Part shown: positions 23,412 to 39,508 of the stretch, piece after piece
Layout: each line of letters opens with the position of its first letter
Numbering within the stretch: the stretch's first letter is position 1
Assembly: GCF_009792355.1 (NCBI RefSeq)
Contig: NZ_CP047045.1
Span: 2,072,501 to 2,136,500 of the forward strand
Direction: 5' to 3'
Source: Terricaulis silvestris
GTDB lineage: Bacteria > Pseudomonadota > Alphaproteobacteria > Caulobacterales > Aquidulcibacteraceae
Length of the DNA: 64,000 bases
Notes under the pieces: model-generated
Database searches by the model: none
What the model was told of the DNA's origin: nothing
What the model saw: only the letters and a program-made list of their open reading frames with translations
Program-made: the position numbers and the translations under genes

Positions 23412-23496
23412 GCGCCGTATGTAGCGGTTCAACCGCGTCGCGTCGATTGCTGGCGCGCCGCATGGTATGGGATCGAGTCGGCAGGAGGCCGGCCAA

Positions 23497-23553
23497 CCAG
23501 CCGCGCACACGCTCCACGTCGTTCACCGTATTGTTCGTTCGCGCGGCAGCGAC
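23497..23553 (-). pseudogene. Decayed second copy of the rel 3' end
   Basis: These 57 bases match 24291-24347, the last codons of rel, with 41 identities in the 53 bases beginning at 23501 and 24295, including a run of 14. On the minus strand it reads [18 protein letters not shown] against rel VAAMRTSKAVKEVERVRG, 12 of 18 identical, and it lacks the rel stop codon. The rest of rel is absent. Together with the gene at 23567-24220 it has the form left by insertion of DNA into the 3' end of rel with replacement of the gene end, or by a local duplication. Confidence 0.65.
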
Positions 23554-23566
23554 GGCTTGGCTTGCG

Positions 23567-24220
23567 TCACTGCTTTTCACGCTCCATCTCCAGGAGCACG
23601 CGCTGGTCGAGAGAGAGATCAGCGAAAGTCTTCAACAGTTCGCCACACGCCTTCAGCAGCGGCGCGGCGAAGGTGTCCGCCATCAGGGCTTCCATCGGCC
23701 CGTGGGTGACATGCGATCCGTCTGAGACCAAACAGGTGATGCGCGCCTGACCAGGCGACGGCGCGGGGCGGTCAGTCGTTCGCGGTCCGCTCTTGGCCGC
23801 GAAGAGAACAGCTGCCTTCATCACGCGGCTCGTCGCGGCGACCAGCGGCGGTACGATACCGTCGGAAAATGCCACTTTGCCCTCGCTGTTGATGTAACGG
23901 ATGCTGCCATCCGTGAAGACGGCGAACACGTCCTGTCCGCCTTCCATCGGCACTTCGGCAACCACACCGCACACAGTGACCTCGGGAGAAGATTTTCTCT
24001 TGGCGGCCGCGAGTTGATTGCCAGCAAGCGCACGATAGCGCGGATGCGTCTCGGGCGACTCCGCAATGGCGCGCACCTTCTTTTCATCGAAGCGATCCAC
24101 AAGGGGCTTCAGAGCCGGTGCAACCCCCTTCGCGTGCTTGGCCAACAGGTCCGCGTCATCGCAGAACATCAAATTGTAGAAGGTATTCGTGGCTTCGCTC
24201 ACGTACGGTTTGATCTTCAC
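23567..24220 (-). CDS. Uncharacterised protein between rel and a duplicated rel 3' end
   Basis: Protein of 217 residues without an assigned function. The middle part, GVVAEVPMEGGQDVFAVF then TDGSIRYINSEGKV (about 107-138), and the start, TNTFYNLMFCDDADLL, resemble a widespread uncharacterised proteobacterial family with a GxIxEV...GLDxLAxxxDGxxRYIN core; this is from memory. No signal peptide or membrane segment. GTG at 24220 is preceded by GGGGGACAGG; an earlier start at 24304 would overlap rel. The gene breaks the usual rel-pyrE order and is flanked on one side by rel and on the other by a rel-like remnant, suggesting it arrived as a unit. Confidence 0.65.
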   Translation of the reverse strand: MKIKPYVSEATNTFYNLMFCDDADLLAKHAKGVAPALKPLVDRFDEKKVRAIAESPETHPRYRALAGNQLAAAKRKSSPEVTVCGVVAEVPMEGGQDVFAVFTDGSIRYINSEGKVAFSDGIVPPLVAATSRVMKAAVLFAAKSGPRTTDRPAPSPGQARITCLVSDGSHVTHGPMEALMADTFAAPLLKACGELLKTFADLSLDQRVLLEMEREKQ

Positions 24221-24290
24221 CCTGTCCCCCGTTTTTGGCAGCACTGCCGCAATTTGCCCCTGCCTACACGGTCCCGTCGCAGTCGAAAAG

Positions 24291-26522
24291 CTAGCCGCGC
24301 ACACGCTCGACTTCCTTCACCGCCTTCGACGTCCGCATGGCGGCGACGATGTTGGTGAGGTGGCGGGCGTCGGCGACTTCGACGTCGAAGACCATGTCGA
24401 AGAAATCGACGCTGCGCTTGGCGAGCCGGAGATTGAGGATGTCGCCCTCGTTCTCCGCGATGATGCCGCACAACTCCGCCAAGACGCCGCGTTTGTTCTC
24501 AACGGTGGCGATGATCCGCCCGACCGCGAGCGTCCGCGTCAGCGCGTTCGGCGTCCAGGCCAGATCGATCCACGCTGTGGCTTCGTCCTCGAGCTTGCCA
24601 AGTTCTTCGCAATCGATGGTGTGAATCATGATGCCCTTGCCCGGCAATTGCACGCCGAGAATCCGGTCACCCGGAATCGGCGAGCAGCATTCGGCGAAAT
24701 GCAGCGCCACGCCCGGCGTTAAATCGCTGCCGCGCACGTAGAGCTTGGCCTTCTCCAGCTCCATGGGTCGCCGCTTTTCGTCCTTCCGGACCTTGTCCTC
24801 AAGCCCCGGAAATGCCGCGACAGCAACCGCGCTGGCCTTGATCGCCCCTTCGCCGACGGCGGCGAACAGCTCGTCCTCGTCGTGCTTGCCAAGCCGCTCA
24901 GCGGCTTGCTTCAGCGCAGTATCCGCGAGTTCGTGGCCATAACGGTGCAGTGCGTGCGAGACCAACTCGCGCCCAAGCTTGCCGAACTCCTCGCGGCGGG
25001 CCGCACGTTCCAGCCGGCGTTGCGCCGATTTCGCGCGACCGGTCTTCGCCAGCGCTTCAAACCCCGGCAGCGGTGCGATCTTTTCCGACGTGATGACTTC
25101 AACGACGTCGCCGTTACGCAGCACTGTGCGCATCGGGCGCTCGGCACCGTTGATTTTCGCGCCGATGGCGCGGTCGCCGATGTCGGAGTGGACCGCGTAG
25201 GCGAAGTCGAGCGGCGAGGCGCCCTGTGGCAGCGGGATCAGCGCGCCTTTAGGCGTAAAGGTGAATACGTGGTCGGAATACATTTCGAGCTTGGCGTGCT
25301 CGAGGAATTCCTTGGCGTCGCCGCCATGCTCGGCGATTTCCAATAGCGAACGGGTTGCTTCGCGCGCGTCGAGCCCGGCGGAGGCCGCAAGCTCTTCGTC
25401 AAAGCCGTAGGCTTCGTTCTTGTAGCGCCAGTGCGCGGCGACGCCATTCTCGGCGATCTGATCCATCTCCTCGGTGCGGATCTGGATTTCGACGCGCACG
25501 TTGCCAGGACCGATCACCGTGGTGTGGATCGAGCGATAGCCGTTCGGCTTGGGGTTGGAGATGTAATCTTCCACCTGATCCGGCACGCAGCGCCAAGTCT
25601 GGTGGATAAGGCCAAGCGCGCGATAGCAATCATCCGGATTGTTGACGATGACGCGGAACGCATAGACATCCGCGAGATCGGAGAATTCGAGGTTCTTGCG
25701 CTGCAACTTGCGCCAGATCGAGTACGGGAGCTTCTCGCGGCCGAACACGCGCGCATCGATGCCGGCGAACTCGAACACCTCCATGATCGTCTGGATGATG
25801 ATCGCGACGTTCTGGCCTTTCTCAGCGCGCAGCTGCTCTAGGCGCACATTGATAGCGGCCTCGGCTTCGGCAAACGCTTCGTGGAACGAAAGGCTCTCCA
25901 ACTCCCGCGCCATCTTCTCCATGCCGATGCGGCGCGCCAGCGGCCCGTAGATTTCCAGCGTCTCCATCGCAATGCGGCGGCGCTTCTCGGGTTTGGGGAT
26001 GTGGCTGAGCGTGCGCATATTGTGCAGCCGGTCAGCGAGTTTCACGATCAGCACGCGCACATCGCGCGACATGGCGAGGATGAACTTCTGCAGGTTCTGC
26101 GCCTGCTTGTTTTCCTCGCTCTGAATTTCGAGCTGCGAGAGCTTGGTGACGCCTTCGACGAGATCCGCGATCTCACCGCCGAACAGCTTGGCGATGTCTT
26201 CCTTGGTGGCGTCCGTGTCTTCGACTGTATCGTGCAACAGCCCCGCCACGATGGTCGCAGCGTCCAACTTGTACTCAGTCAGAATGCCCGCGACCTGAAT
26301 CGGGTGCGCGAAGTACGGGTCACCGGAGTGCCGGAGCTGACTGCCGTGTTTCGCCGTCGCGTACACATAGGCGCGGTTGACCAAGCTCTCATCAAGCGAG
26401 GGATCGTACGCACGCATGCGCTCGACCAGCTGGAACTGGCGCAGATAACGCGGCGCATCGCCCGCGCCAGCCTTTGCTTGACCAGCCGGGGCTTGGGCGG
26501 CGACTCCGTCACCGCCTGACAT
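24291..26522 (-). CDS. rel: Bifunctional (p)ppGpp synthetase/hydrolase RelA/SpoT
   Basis: Makes and breaks the alarmone (p)ppGpp. The 743-residue protein has, in order, the HD hydrolase domain (HPIQVAGILTEYKLDAATIV, then LLHDTVEDTD at about 71-105), the synthetase domain (RKNLEFSDLADVYAFRVIV and EIQIRTEEMDQIAENGVAAH, about 250-370), a TGS domain (FTPKGALIPLPQGASPLDFA) and a C-terminal ACT domain (about 665-743). The HD motif being intact indicates both activities, the single-enzyme arrangement of alphaproteobacteria. It starts 4 bases after rpoZ. Its last codons are duplicated at 23497-23553. Confidence 0.95.
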   Translation of the reverse strand: MSGGDGVAAQAPAGQAKAGAGDAPRYLRQFQLVERMRAYDPSLDESLVNRAYVYATAKHGSQLRHSGDPYFAHPIQVAGILTEYKLDAATIVAGLLHDTVEDTDATKEDIAKLFGGEIADLVEGVTKLSQLEIQSEENKQAQNLQKFILAMSRDVRVLIVKLADRLHNMRTLSHIPKPEKRRRIAMETLEIYGPLARRIGMEKMARELESLSFHEAFAEAEAAINVRLEQLRAEKGQNVAIIIQTIMEVFEFAGIDARVFGREKLPYSIWRKLQRKNLEFSDLADVYAFRVIVNNPDDCYRALGLIHQTWRCVPDQVEDYISNPKPNGYRSIHTTVIGPGNVRVEIQIRTEEMDQIAENGVAAHWRYKNEAYGFDEELAASAGLDAREATRSLLEIAEHGGDAKEFLEHAKLEMYSDHVFTFTPKGALIPLPQGASPLDFAYAVHSDIGDRAIGAKINGAERPMRTVLRNGDVVEVITSEKIAPLPGFEALAKTGRAKSAQRRLERAARREEFGKLGRELVSHALHRYGHELADTALKQAAERLGKHDEDELFAAVGEGAIKASAVAVAAFPGLEDKVRKDEKRRPMELEKAKLYVRGSDLTPGVALHFAECCSPIPGDRILGVQLPGKGIMIHTIDCEELGKLEDEATAWIDLAWTPNALTRTLAVGRIIATVENKRGVLAELCGIIAENEGDILNLRLAKRSVDFFDMVFDVEVADARHLTNIVAAMRTSKAVKEVERVRG

Positions 26523-28775: not shown

Positions 28776-29675
28776 TTAGAGCAACCCAGCCTGCGTCATC
28801 ACCGCTTTGATCTTCGCCTTCGCCGCATCACTGCACGGAATGATCGGCAGCCGCACGTCTTCCGTGCAATGCCCCAACAGCGAACACGCATACTTTGCCG
28901 GCGCCGGCGACGGTTCGAGAAACAGCACCTTGTGTAGTTCGGCCAAGCGCTCCTCGATCTGACGCGCTGCATCGAACGCGCCCTGCAGCGAAGCGTCCTG
29001 CAGCTGCGCGCAAAGTTTCGGCGCCACGTTTGCTGTAACGGAGATGCAGCCCCGTCCGCCCGACGCATTGAAGCCCACCGCGTTCGGATCGTCGCCAGAC
29101 AATTGGATGAACGCGTCTCCGCAGAGCGTGCGATGGCGCGACACGCGCCCCACATCGCTGCTCGCGTCCTTATCGCCGATCACATTGGCGAGCTTCGAAA
29201 GCCGCCCCATCGTCTCGACGCTGATGTCCACCACCGTGCGGCCTGGCACGTTGTAGACGACAATCGGAATATCGACCGCGTCGTTGATCGCTTTGAAGTG
29301 CGCGCAAATGCCCTCTTGGCTCGGCTTGTTGTAGTACGGCGCCACCACCAGCACCGCGTCGGCGCCCACGGCCTTGCAGCCCTTCGCCAACTCAATCGCA
29401 TGCGCCGTGTTGTTCGAGCCCGCACCCGCAACGACCGGCACGCGCCCTGCCGCTGCCTCAACGCAAAGTTCCACAACCCGAACATGTTCCGCGACGCTCA
29501 GGGTCACCGATTCGCCCGTCGTCCCGCACGGCACAAGCCCGTGTGAACCTTCGGCAATTTGGTGTTCTACAAACAGCTGGAACGCCCGTTCATCTACGAT
29601 TCCGTCACGGAATGGCGTAATAAGAGCCGGTATCGACCCGTGAATCGTGGCGGCGCGCTGGGTGTGGGGTGGCAT
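28776..29675 (-). CDS. dapA: 4-hydroxy-tetrahydrodipicolinate synthase
   Basis: Condenses pyruvate with aspartate semialdehyde in the lysine and diaminopimelate pathway. The 299-residue TIM-barrel protein has [10 protein letters not shown] at 51-60, the catalytic tyrosine Tyr141 in YNVPGR and the Schiff-base lysine Lys169 in [11 protein letters not shown] at 29675 gives the standard length; the open frame continues 62 codons upstream with no family similarity. It forms a pair with smpB and diverges from slt. dapF at 52.7-53.5 kb belongs to the same pathway. Confidence 0.95.
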
Positions 29676-38180: not shown

Positions 38181-38642
38181 TCACTCGGCCCGCGCGCTCA
38201 CGATCTTGCCGGGCGTGCGCGGCGGCTCGCCCTTCGGCAGCGCGTCGATGGCCTCCATGCCTTCCTCGACCACGCCCCAGACGGTGTATTGCTTGTCGAG
38301 GAAACGCGCGTCGTCGAGGCAGATGAAGAACTGGCTGTTGGCCGAGTTCGGATCGTTGGTGCGCGCCATCGAGCAGACGCCGCGCACATGCGCCTCGGCG
38401 GAAAATTCCTGCTTCAGGTTCGGCTTCTTCGAACCGCCGGTGCCGTTCTTGTTTCCGCCGTCGCCGCCTTGCGCCATGAAGCCGGCGATGACGCGGTGAA
38501 ACGGCACGCCGTTGTAGAAGCCTTCATTGGCGAGTTCGCCGATGCGCTGCACATGGCCCGGCGCCAGATCGGGCCGCAGCTTGATCTGCACCGTGCCGGT
38601 GTCGAGCTCGAGCGTCAGTCTATGAAAGGAATTATCGACCAC
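38181..38642 (-). CDS. Cyclophilin-type peptidyl-prolyl isomerase, cytoplasmic
   Basis: Cyclophilin of 153 residues that speeds proline isomerisation during folding. The active-site arginine is in FYNGVPFHRVIAGFMAQGGD, and the conserved core continues RGVCSMARTNDPNSANSQFF and LDKQYTVWGVVEEGM. No signal peptide, so it acts in the cytoplasm. Start is GTG at 38642, which overlaps the preceding cyclophilin gene by 28 bases. The two form a tandem pair in the gyrA-coaD-ppi-ppi-queA-tgt order. Confidence 0.93.
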   Translation of the reverse strand: MVDNSFHRLTLELDTGTVQIKLRPDLAPGHVQRIGELANEGFYNGVPFHRVIAGFMAQGGDGGNKNGTGGSKKPNLKQEFSAEAHVRGVCSMARTNDPNSANSQFFICLDDARFLDKQYTVWGVVEEGMEAIDALPKGEPPRTPGKIVSARAE

Positions 38643-39508
38643 CAGCGTCTCTCTCTGTTTTCAGTGCGCGGAACCCGCGCGGGAATTTGCACATCGCACA
38701 CCGAGAAATCGGCTGACCGTTCGCGGCGCGTATCGTCAATCAAATCACGGAACGCCGGGCCATCGGTGCGCAGCACGTATATAGGCGCGCGCTCGGTCTC
38801 GGGCACGTCAGCCGCGATCCGCACCGCGACCATGCGGTCCGGCGTGGGCGGGGGGTTGCCAACGGCAAGCGCCATCACGGCGTTCTGGCCCCACACAACG
38901 CGGCCGAAGATCGAATAGCGCTTGTCGAGATCGGTGTTCGGCGCACGCATGATGAAAAATTGGCTGTTGGCCGAGTTCGGGTTATCCGCCCGCGCCATCG
39001 AGACGACGCCCGGGCAGTGCAGCGCATTGGCGGCAACACGGCCGTCAGCGGTCACCGCCATTTGCGCATCCGGCTGGCTCTCGATCGGGATCGCTTTGTA
39101 AAACCCGAGCCGCGCGCCGCCTTGGTTGGCGGCTTCCACAAACGGCATGTCAGGGCCACGGCGGAAGCGGAACTCCTCGCGTATATCCGGCAAGCTCGAT
39201 GCACCTTCGCCGGTGCCGAGCGGATCGCCGGTCTGCGCCATGAAGCCATCGACGACGCGGTGGAACATGAGGCCGTCGTAGTAGCCCGCCCGCGTCAACG
39301 TCTCGAGGCGCTCGACGTGGCGCGGCGCGATCTCCGGATACATCTCGATCACGATGCGGCCATGGACCGTGTCGATGTAGAGCGTGTGCTCCGGATCGAC
39401 CTGACGCCAATTGCGCGGATCGGGCGCCGATTGCGCCGCCGCGTCCATACTCAGAAGCGAGAGCGCCACAGCGCCCGCCGCCAAAATTCCACATACGCGC
39501 AGCATCAA
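38615..39508 (-). CDS. Cyclophilin-type peptidyl-prolyl isomerase, exported
   Basis: Exported cyclophilin of 297 residues: signal peptide ending MDAAAQS near 26, then the isomerase domain with YYDGLMFHRVVDGFMAQTGD, SMARADNPNSANSQFF and LDKRYSIFGRVVWGQ. A C-terminal extension of about 80 residues (from VAVRIAADVPETERAP) is not part of the fold and ends RRWWSIIPFID. It overlaps coaD by 4 bases upstream and the cytoplasmic cyclophilin gene downstream. Confidence 0.93.
   Translation of the reverse strand: MMLRVCGILAAGAVALSLLSMDAAAQSAPDPRNWRQVDPEHTLYIDTVHGRIVIEMYPEIAPRHVERLETLTRAGYYDGLMFHRVVDGFMAQTGDPLGTGEGASSLPDIREEFRFRRGPDMPFVEAANQGGARLGFYKAIPIESQPDAQMAVTADGRVAANALHCPGVVSMARADNPNSANSQFFIMRAPNTDLDKRYSIFGRVVWGQNAVMALAVGNPPPTPDRMVAVRIAADVPETERAPIYVLRTDGPAFRDLIDDTRRERSADFSVCDVQIPARVPRTENRERRWWSIIPFID

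Follow-up and report, generated by a model that had tools for sequence, protein, structure and literature searches.

Genomic islands that lodge in tRNA and tmRNA genes regenerate the gene that they enter and displace a fragment of it, as outlined for Islander (PMC4383910). For the type VI secretion system (T6SS) effector-immunity arrays of Vibrio cholerae, the account in PMC5361080 proposes homology-facilitated illegitimate recombination, with older immunity genes and 3' ends being displaced downstream of the new module, and for Escherichia coli a route has been outlined in which DNA is circularised and then integrated by a single crossover (PMC3240628). The window analysed in this study, a stretch of 64,000 nucleotides from Terricaulis silvestris, contains a locus in which the last bases of rel recur on the far side of a single gene that lies between rel and pyrE (Table 1). 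We propose, with moderate confidence, that a rel end and the gene adjacent to it were recombined into the ancestor of the window's genome from another lineage of the genus and that a second rel end was left before pyrE.

Table 1. Features of the rel-pyrE locus, in the order in which they are transcribed, with the basis of each assignment
Feature	Coordinates	Strand	Basis
rel, RelA/SpoT-type (p)ppGpp enzyme, 743 aa	24291-26522	-	Pfam HD_4, RelA_SpoT, TGS, RelA_AH_RIS, ACT_4
Present rel end, carrier-type, probably imported	24291-24347	-	Tail placement and controls
70-base spacer from rel stop to gene, not recognisably a native rel-pyrE spacer	24221-24290	-	p 0.23 against the spacers of 17 relatives
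Interposed gene, 654 bases, 217 aa	23567-24220	-	No family above cut-off; Mago-like predicted C-terminal fold
13 bases from gene stop to remnant, novel junction	23554-23566	-	Read from the sequence
Second rel end (remnant), 57 bases, stop changed to TGG	23497-23553	-	44/57 identical
85-base spacer before pyrE, probably native	23412-23496	-	Resembles relatives' rel-pyrE spacers
pyrE, orotate phosphoribosyltransferase, 194 aa	22827-23411	-	Pfam Pribosyltran 3.2e-13

The preliminary description of this stretch had reported a duplicated rel end, and this was confirmed. Ungapped alignment of the final 57 bases of rel with the copy gives 44 identities and a longest identical run of 16 bases, compared with the 41 of 53 and the run of 14 given earlier; the essentials of that description, namely, the shared orientation, the spacing of 794, encoded ends (VAAMRTSKAVKEVERVRG-stop in rel) that are identical at 12 of 18 positions, and a copy that lacks a stop, were all reproduced; the copy reads TGG in the place of the TAG of rel. 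None of 2,000 dinucleotide shuffles of the adjacent 1.5 kb (mean, 11.3; maximum, 19) reached the local score of 31, and an independent repeat search recovered the same pair (56 nt, 79%, spacing 794). Six families of direct repeats (at least 40 nt in length and at most 5 kb apart) are present in the window, and only the rel-end pair involves rel. Elsewhere in the window, at 38322-39286, there are two direct-repeat pairs that are approximately 80% identical, with spacings of 629 and 764, which may mark two neighbouring paralogous genes. A second match of the rel end in the genome (G000:C1:3198148) was attributed to chance; it lies antisense to an open frame resembling a transporter. Seven of the 12 differences between the present end and the remnant fall at third codon positions (p 0.066), a weak hint that the two sequences diverged in part while under coding constraint and that both had once functioned as gene ends.

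Analysis of the spacers indicated which side of the insert is the native one. The spacer on the pyrE side resembled the rel-pyrE spacers of 17 relatives, its mean score being reached by none of 300 shuffles, whereas the spacer behind the present rel end showed no resemblance to the same set (p 0.23); the pyrE side is therefore read as native. Homology between the two spacers was rejected (p 0.20). pyrE itself is 71 to 97% identical in congeners. As had been claimed, one gene without a family above the cut-off separates rel from pyrE; a longer open reading frame that starts at 24304 overlaps the rel stop, and homologues match only from its residue 30 to 32. Promoter and terminator scans gave no promoter-like sites and one terminator-like site, compared with 1.2 expected.

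Insertions between rel and pyrE are frequent in this genus, making the gap a hot spot. Among the 27 classifiable genomes (the 30 of the genus minus G012, G016, and G028), the gap is only 19 to 53 bases long in 17, and the remaining 10 hold extra DNA of about 470 to 2,180 bases. The interposed gene accounts for four of these insertions, a DUF5360 protein for two (G007 and G020), and single other frames for four: a Uma2 frame (G025), an M3 peptidase frame (G015), a DUF4153-like frame (below the cut-off), and a short frame without a family. Loci with accessory genes in the gap include those of G004 (L093), G007 (L006), G009 (L028), G015 (L094), G020 (L021), G021 (L026), and G025 (L022); in G015, rel is split into two frames (residues 1-482 and 482-743), which reflects either a frameshift or an assembly error.

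The anatomy of the window's locus, with a restored end, cargo, and a displaced fragment in the same orientation, had been tentatively read as that of an element that inserted at the rel end, brought in a replacement end, and left the old end at its far border; as considered here, such an element would have been recombinase-borne and would since have lost its recombinase. This anatomy fits, and the foreign-like tail of rel described below spans the same length as the repeat; however, the insert consists of one gene, in which no recombinase was found in the families searched, and none was found among the seven Pfam-scanned of the nine frames listed in seven other rel-pyrE insertions. Furthermore, no copy of a rel end was detected in the other nine insertions of the genus (best local scores of 7 to 11, compared with 32 here), and the identical run occupies the end of the repeat that holds the stop codon, whereas the core of a crossover would be expected at the upstream border. 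Because the insert contains no recombinase and the other nine insertions contain no copied rel end, carriage of the gene as cargo of such an element is not supported, and we judge it very unlikely.

The interposed gene is patchily distributed. Across 61 genomes, comprising that of the window and those of 60 relatives, rel was identified in 60 and the gene in four; the gene was present in four of the 30 genomes of the genus and in four of 299 of the order; in all four carriers (the window's genome, G009, G013, and G014), it lies directly after rel. A profile search of a sample of the phylum gave 3 of 398 genomes, one of them barely (E 8.6e-4) and another being the window's own, and a profile search within one family gave 3 of 233 genomes, with one protein identical to that of Rhodanobacter. 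Scanning of genome contigs outside the genus placed homologues in Geobacteraceae, Rhodanobacter, and Massilia; the homologue from Massilia sp. MS-15 (L042 5001-5606) lies inside what we take to be a type VI secretion gene cluster. One homologue was obtained from a scan of viral contigs, and two queries of a plasmid collection gave none. On an IMG/VR viral contig (L098 4917-5909), a homologue stands a few kilobases before a terminase-like frame. The window's copy is 31 to 41% identical to those of the other carriers and has a very long branch in the gene tree, in which the four genus copies fall on one side (80/83, not starred). The conserved part of the gene starts about 74 to 80 bases past the rel stop in the window and 15 to 18 bases past it in the other carriers; hence, no known carrier resembles the donor. 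The flank after rel in the window shares nothing with the corresponding flanks of the other carriers.

The product of the interposed gene had no family above the cut-off in Pfam, NCBIfam, PHROGs, or PADLOC, and Pfam AroM, which appeared for one of seven members of the gene family at an E value of 0.005, below the cut-off, was rejected. Structure prediction gave a b4-a-b2-a C-terminal domain; for two family members, the products of 23567-24220 in the window and of L040 5001-5612, the eight best PDB entries were Mago, which ranked above other PDB folds. The models therefore predict a Mago nashi-like C-terminal fold, to which sequence comparisons lend no support. The Pfam Mago_nashi profile (PF02792) was not listed at E values up to 10 for seven family proteins, and in seven genomes, it gave one weak match, on a contig other than that of the gene; Mago was absent from the matches listed in profile searches of PDB sequences; and sequence homology was rejected on the basis of an hhalign probability of 3.6 and a score of 21.6, compared with a best score of 21.4 in 60 shuffles, which is no real support. 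Among the matches listed in a literature search, none was a prokaryotic Mago relative by title, which is no proof of absence, and the L040 model had no match at an E value of 0.001 or better in a viral structure library. The likeness to Mago nashi of the exon junction complex would thus lie in the predicted b4-a-b2-a domain; the product differs in being bacterial and in carrying an extra N-terminal helical part.

The ancestry of the present rel end was assessed on a tree of 16 neighbouring ORFs (28 genomes, rel tail excluded), one of which, 29103-29546, may still be antisense; this tree replaced an earlier one with several antisense ORFs (p-AU 0.062 against a carrier clade). The window's genome is sister to five non-carriers (98/97) and lies inside a nine-genome clade (100/100), the other eight members of which are non-carriers, and grouping of the four carriers as one clade is rejected (p-AU 0.0015). 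Its nearest compared relative is about 81% identical in rel DNA. For the last 54 coding bases of the window's rel, placement with the carriers is 19.2 log units above placement at the genome's own position, with weights of 0.84 for G013/G014, 0.07 for G009, and 0.08 near the base of the genus. Along rel, the tail ranked first among 41 segments, with a value of 17.4 (the other 40 had a mean of -1.0, a standard deviation of 4.25, and a maximum of 11.0); across 26 genomes with 12 segments each, none of 312 values reached 17.4 (maximum, 14.6), the next-highest tail being at 9.6. The carrier signal does not extend beyond the final 54 nt: counted from the end, 27-nt segments gave 6.7 and 12.3 and then 0.6, -1.5, and -4.7. 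In an identity scan of 725 segments, the two at the very end ranked first and second in excess similarity to the carriers. Among 2,600 genome triples, 6 (carriers included) reached the carriers' tail excess in raw terms and 87 reached it by z-score. Tests on a rel-only tree, since superseded by the 16-ORF tree, agreed in direction (tail rank 2 of 40 segments, 12.5 versus 13.1). The rel trees and the tail tests were run without G015 and G028, in which rel is broken or partial, and without G016, which has a partial rel and no locus; G003 was missing from the species trees, the tail and remnant placements, the 312-value control, and the codon breakdown.

Two codons, Ser TCG and Arg CGC, provide 12.2 of the 19.2 log units, and 6.9 are left without them. 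The serine TCG is present in all three other carriers; of the 23 aligned non-carriers of the genus, G010 alone has it. The outgroup G036, from another genus, has a TCN serine and RVRG, as in the carrier-type end, so that this type of end may be ancestral and retained. Given the patchy occurrence of the gene within the genus and the grouping of the rel end alone with the carriers, a replacement end arriving with its cargo is the best reading, and on this sequence evidence the present end probably came in together with the gene. The earlier claim that the insert brought a replacement end thus holds as far as tail affinity and gene distribution go, but most of the signal is carried by two codons.

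Alternatively, the gene may have arrived independently from outside the genus in an insertion hot spot, with the likeness of the rel tail to those of the carriers being chance convergence in a short stretch. The frequency of insertions in the rel-pyrE gap is in keeping with such an event, as is the similarity of the window's gene to the Geobacteraceae copy (38 to 39%), which is close to its similarity to the G009 copy (39 to 41%). However, a tail signal above all 312 controls and the position of the genus copies on one side of the gene tree argue against it, and we find this explanation improbable.

The remnant may represent the former rel end of the host, a second copy from the donor, or a mosaic of the two. 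When placed alone, it was diffuse, the position of its own species lying 5.6 log units below the best. The best joint likelihood (-864.4) was obtained with the remnant and the present end as sisters on the carrier branch; with the present end on that branch and the remnant at the host position, the value was -870.5, about 6 log units worse, and the reverse assignment gave -885 to -886. The AAC of the remnant at the serine position is one step from the AGC of non-carriers and favours host origin by 6.1, whereas the CGC arginine that it shares with the present end favours common origin by 6.1. The claim that the remnant is the ancestral rel end therefore draws support from the serine codon but not from the best joint likelihood. 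It had also been predicted that the rel ends of non-carriers would resemble the remnant more closely than they resemble the present end. This prediction failed, as it held for 1 of 26 non-carriers (G036 included), with one further tie; the comparison is a coarse one, since a copy in decay loses similarity to all sequences.

These likelihoods also bear on plain local duplication, which the preliminary description had named as the alternative and in which the rel end would be native, the gene ancestral and lost in most of the genus, and the copied end decayed behind the gene. The sister placement of the two ends is what favours it, together with their common ending, CGT GTG CGC GGC, the penultimate CGC of which is absent in the eight nearest non-carriers shown, and with the indication from the outgroup that the carrier-type end may be ancestral. 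However, the sister pair fits only the carrier branch; at the genome's own place the value falls to -882.0, about 18 log units lower. Retention would also demand losses in the surrounding non-carriers (eight in the nine-genome clade), and the AAC of the remnant fits an AGC ancestor. Local duplication followed by decay is therefore disfavoured, and we regard it as unlikely; the finding is probably more than a decayed local duplication.

We favour the transfer of a rel end and its neighbour between lineages of the genus. The donor piece would have comprised a rel end and the adjacent accessory gene, from a lineage of the genus that carries the gene after rel, and the shared rel end would have served as the recombination anchor. 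One junction would fall within the final 54 bases of rel or immediately ahead of them, leaving rel intact but with the donor's end; the rel reading frame is seamless, and its affinity changes close to the stop. The second junction would be non-homologous and fall within the 13 bases after the gene, and the outcome would be a second rel end of 57 bases, decayed and without a stop, before the native spacer and pyrE. Illegitimate junctions often show microhomology; the one in the window is a novel joint between the gene stop and the remnant. A recombinase would not be needed, since either homology-facilitated illegitimate recombination or integration of a circle by one crossover could give this anatomy; depending on which of these routes was taken, the remnant would be either the former end of the host's own rel or a second copy supplied by the donor.

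If this explanation is correct, gene ends duplicated around a single gene would be readable footprints of recombinase-free capture at core operons, and accessory genes without mobility genes could be dated and sourced. It would also serve as a warning that, in a conserved gene, the final 20 codons can differ in history from the remainder. The rel-pyrE gap of the genus, with extra DNA in 10 of 27 genomes, offers a compact test bed. It can further be envisioned that a core-gene end acts as a portable anchor, with a unit of rel end and cargo moving between species without a recombinase, inserting repeatedly in the rel-pyrE gap, and leaving a worn end behind, the cargo here being a prokaryotic protein with a Mago-like fold; we put forward this broader proposal tentatively and consider it doubtful in its entirety.

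The locus has in common with Islander-type islands a restored gene end and a displaced fragment that bound the insert, and a further feature of integrase islands is found here in that the ancestry of the restored end differs from that of the rest of rel, subject to the two-codon and outgroup caveats. Those islands, as outlined, are integrase elements in tRNA and tmRNA genes, whereas the insert here sits at a protein gene and showed no integrase. With the V. cholerae T6SS arrays, as far as the published proposal describes them, our explanation shares a homology anchor on one side, an illegitimate joint on the other, and old 3' ends downstream; the locus differs in that the terminal bases of rel, a core enzyme gene, would be the anchor, the cargo consists of a single accessory gene, and the tract of foreign sequence in rel is very short, at approximately 54 bases. 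Integration of a circle by a single crossover, as outlined for E. coli, would be expected to flank the cargo with two copies of the anchor, each of them a hybrid. The locus is compatible with such an outcome, although the mosaic signal of the remnant here rests on two codons. Both proposed routes are already known; the combination of a short core-gene anchor with no recombinase is a variant that is worth a systematic search.
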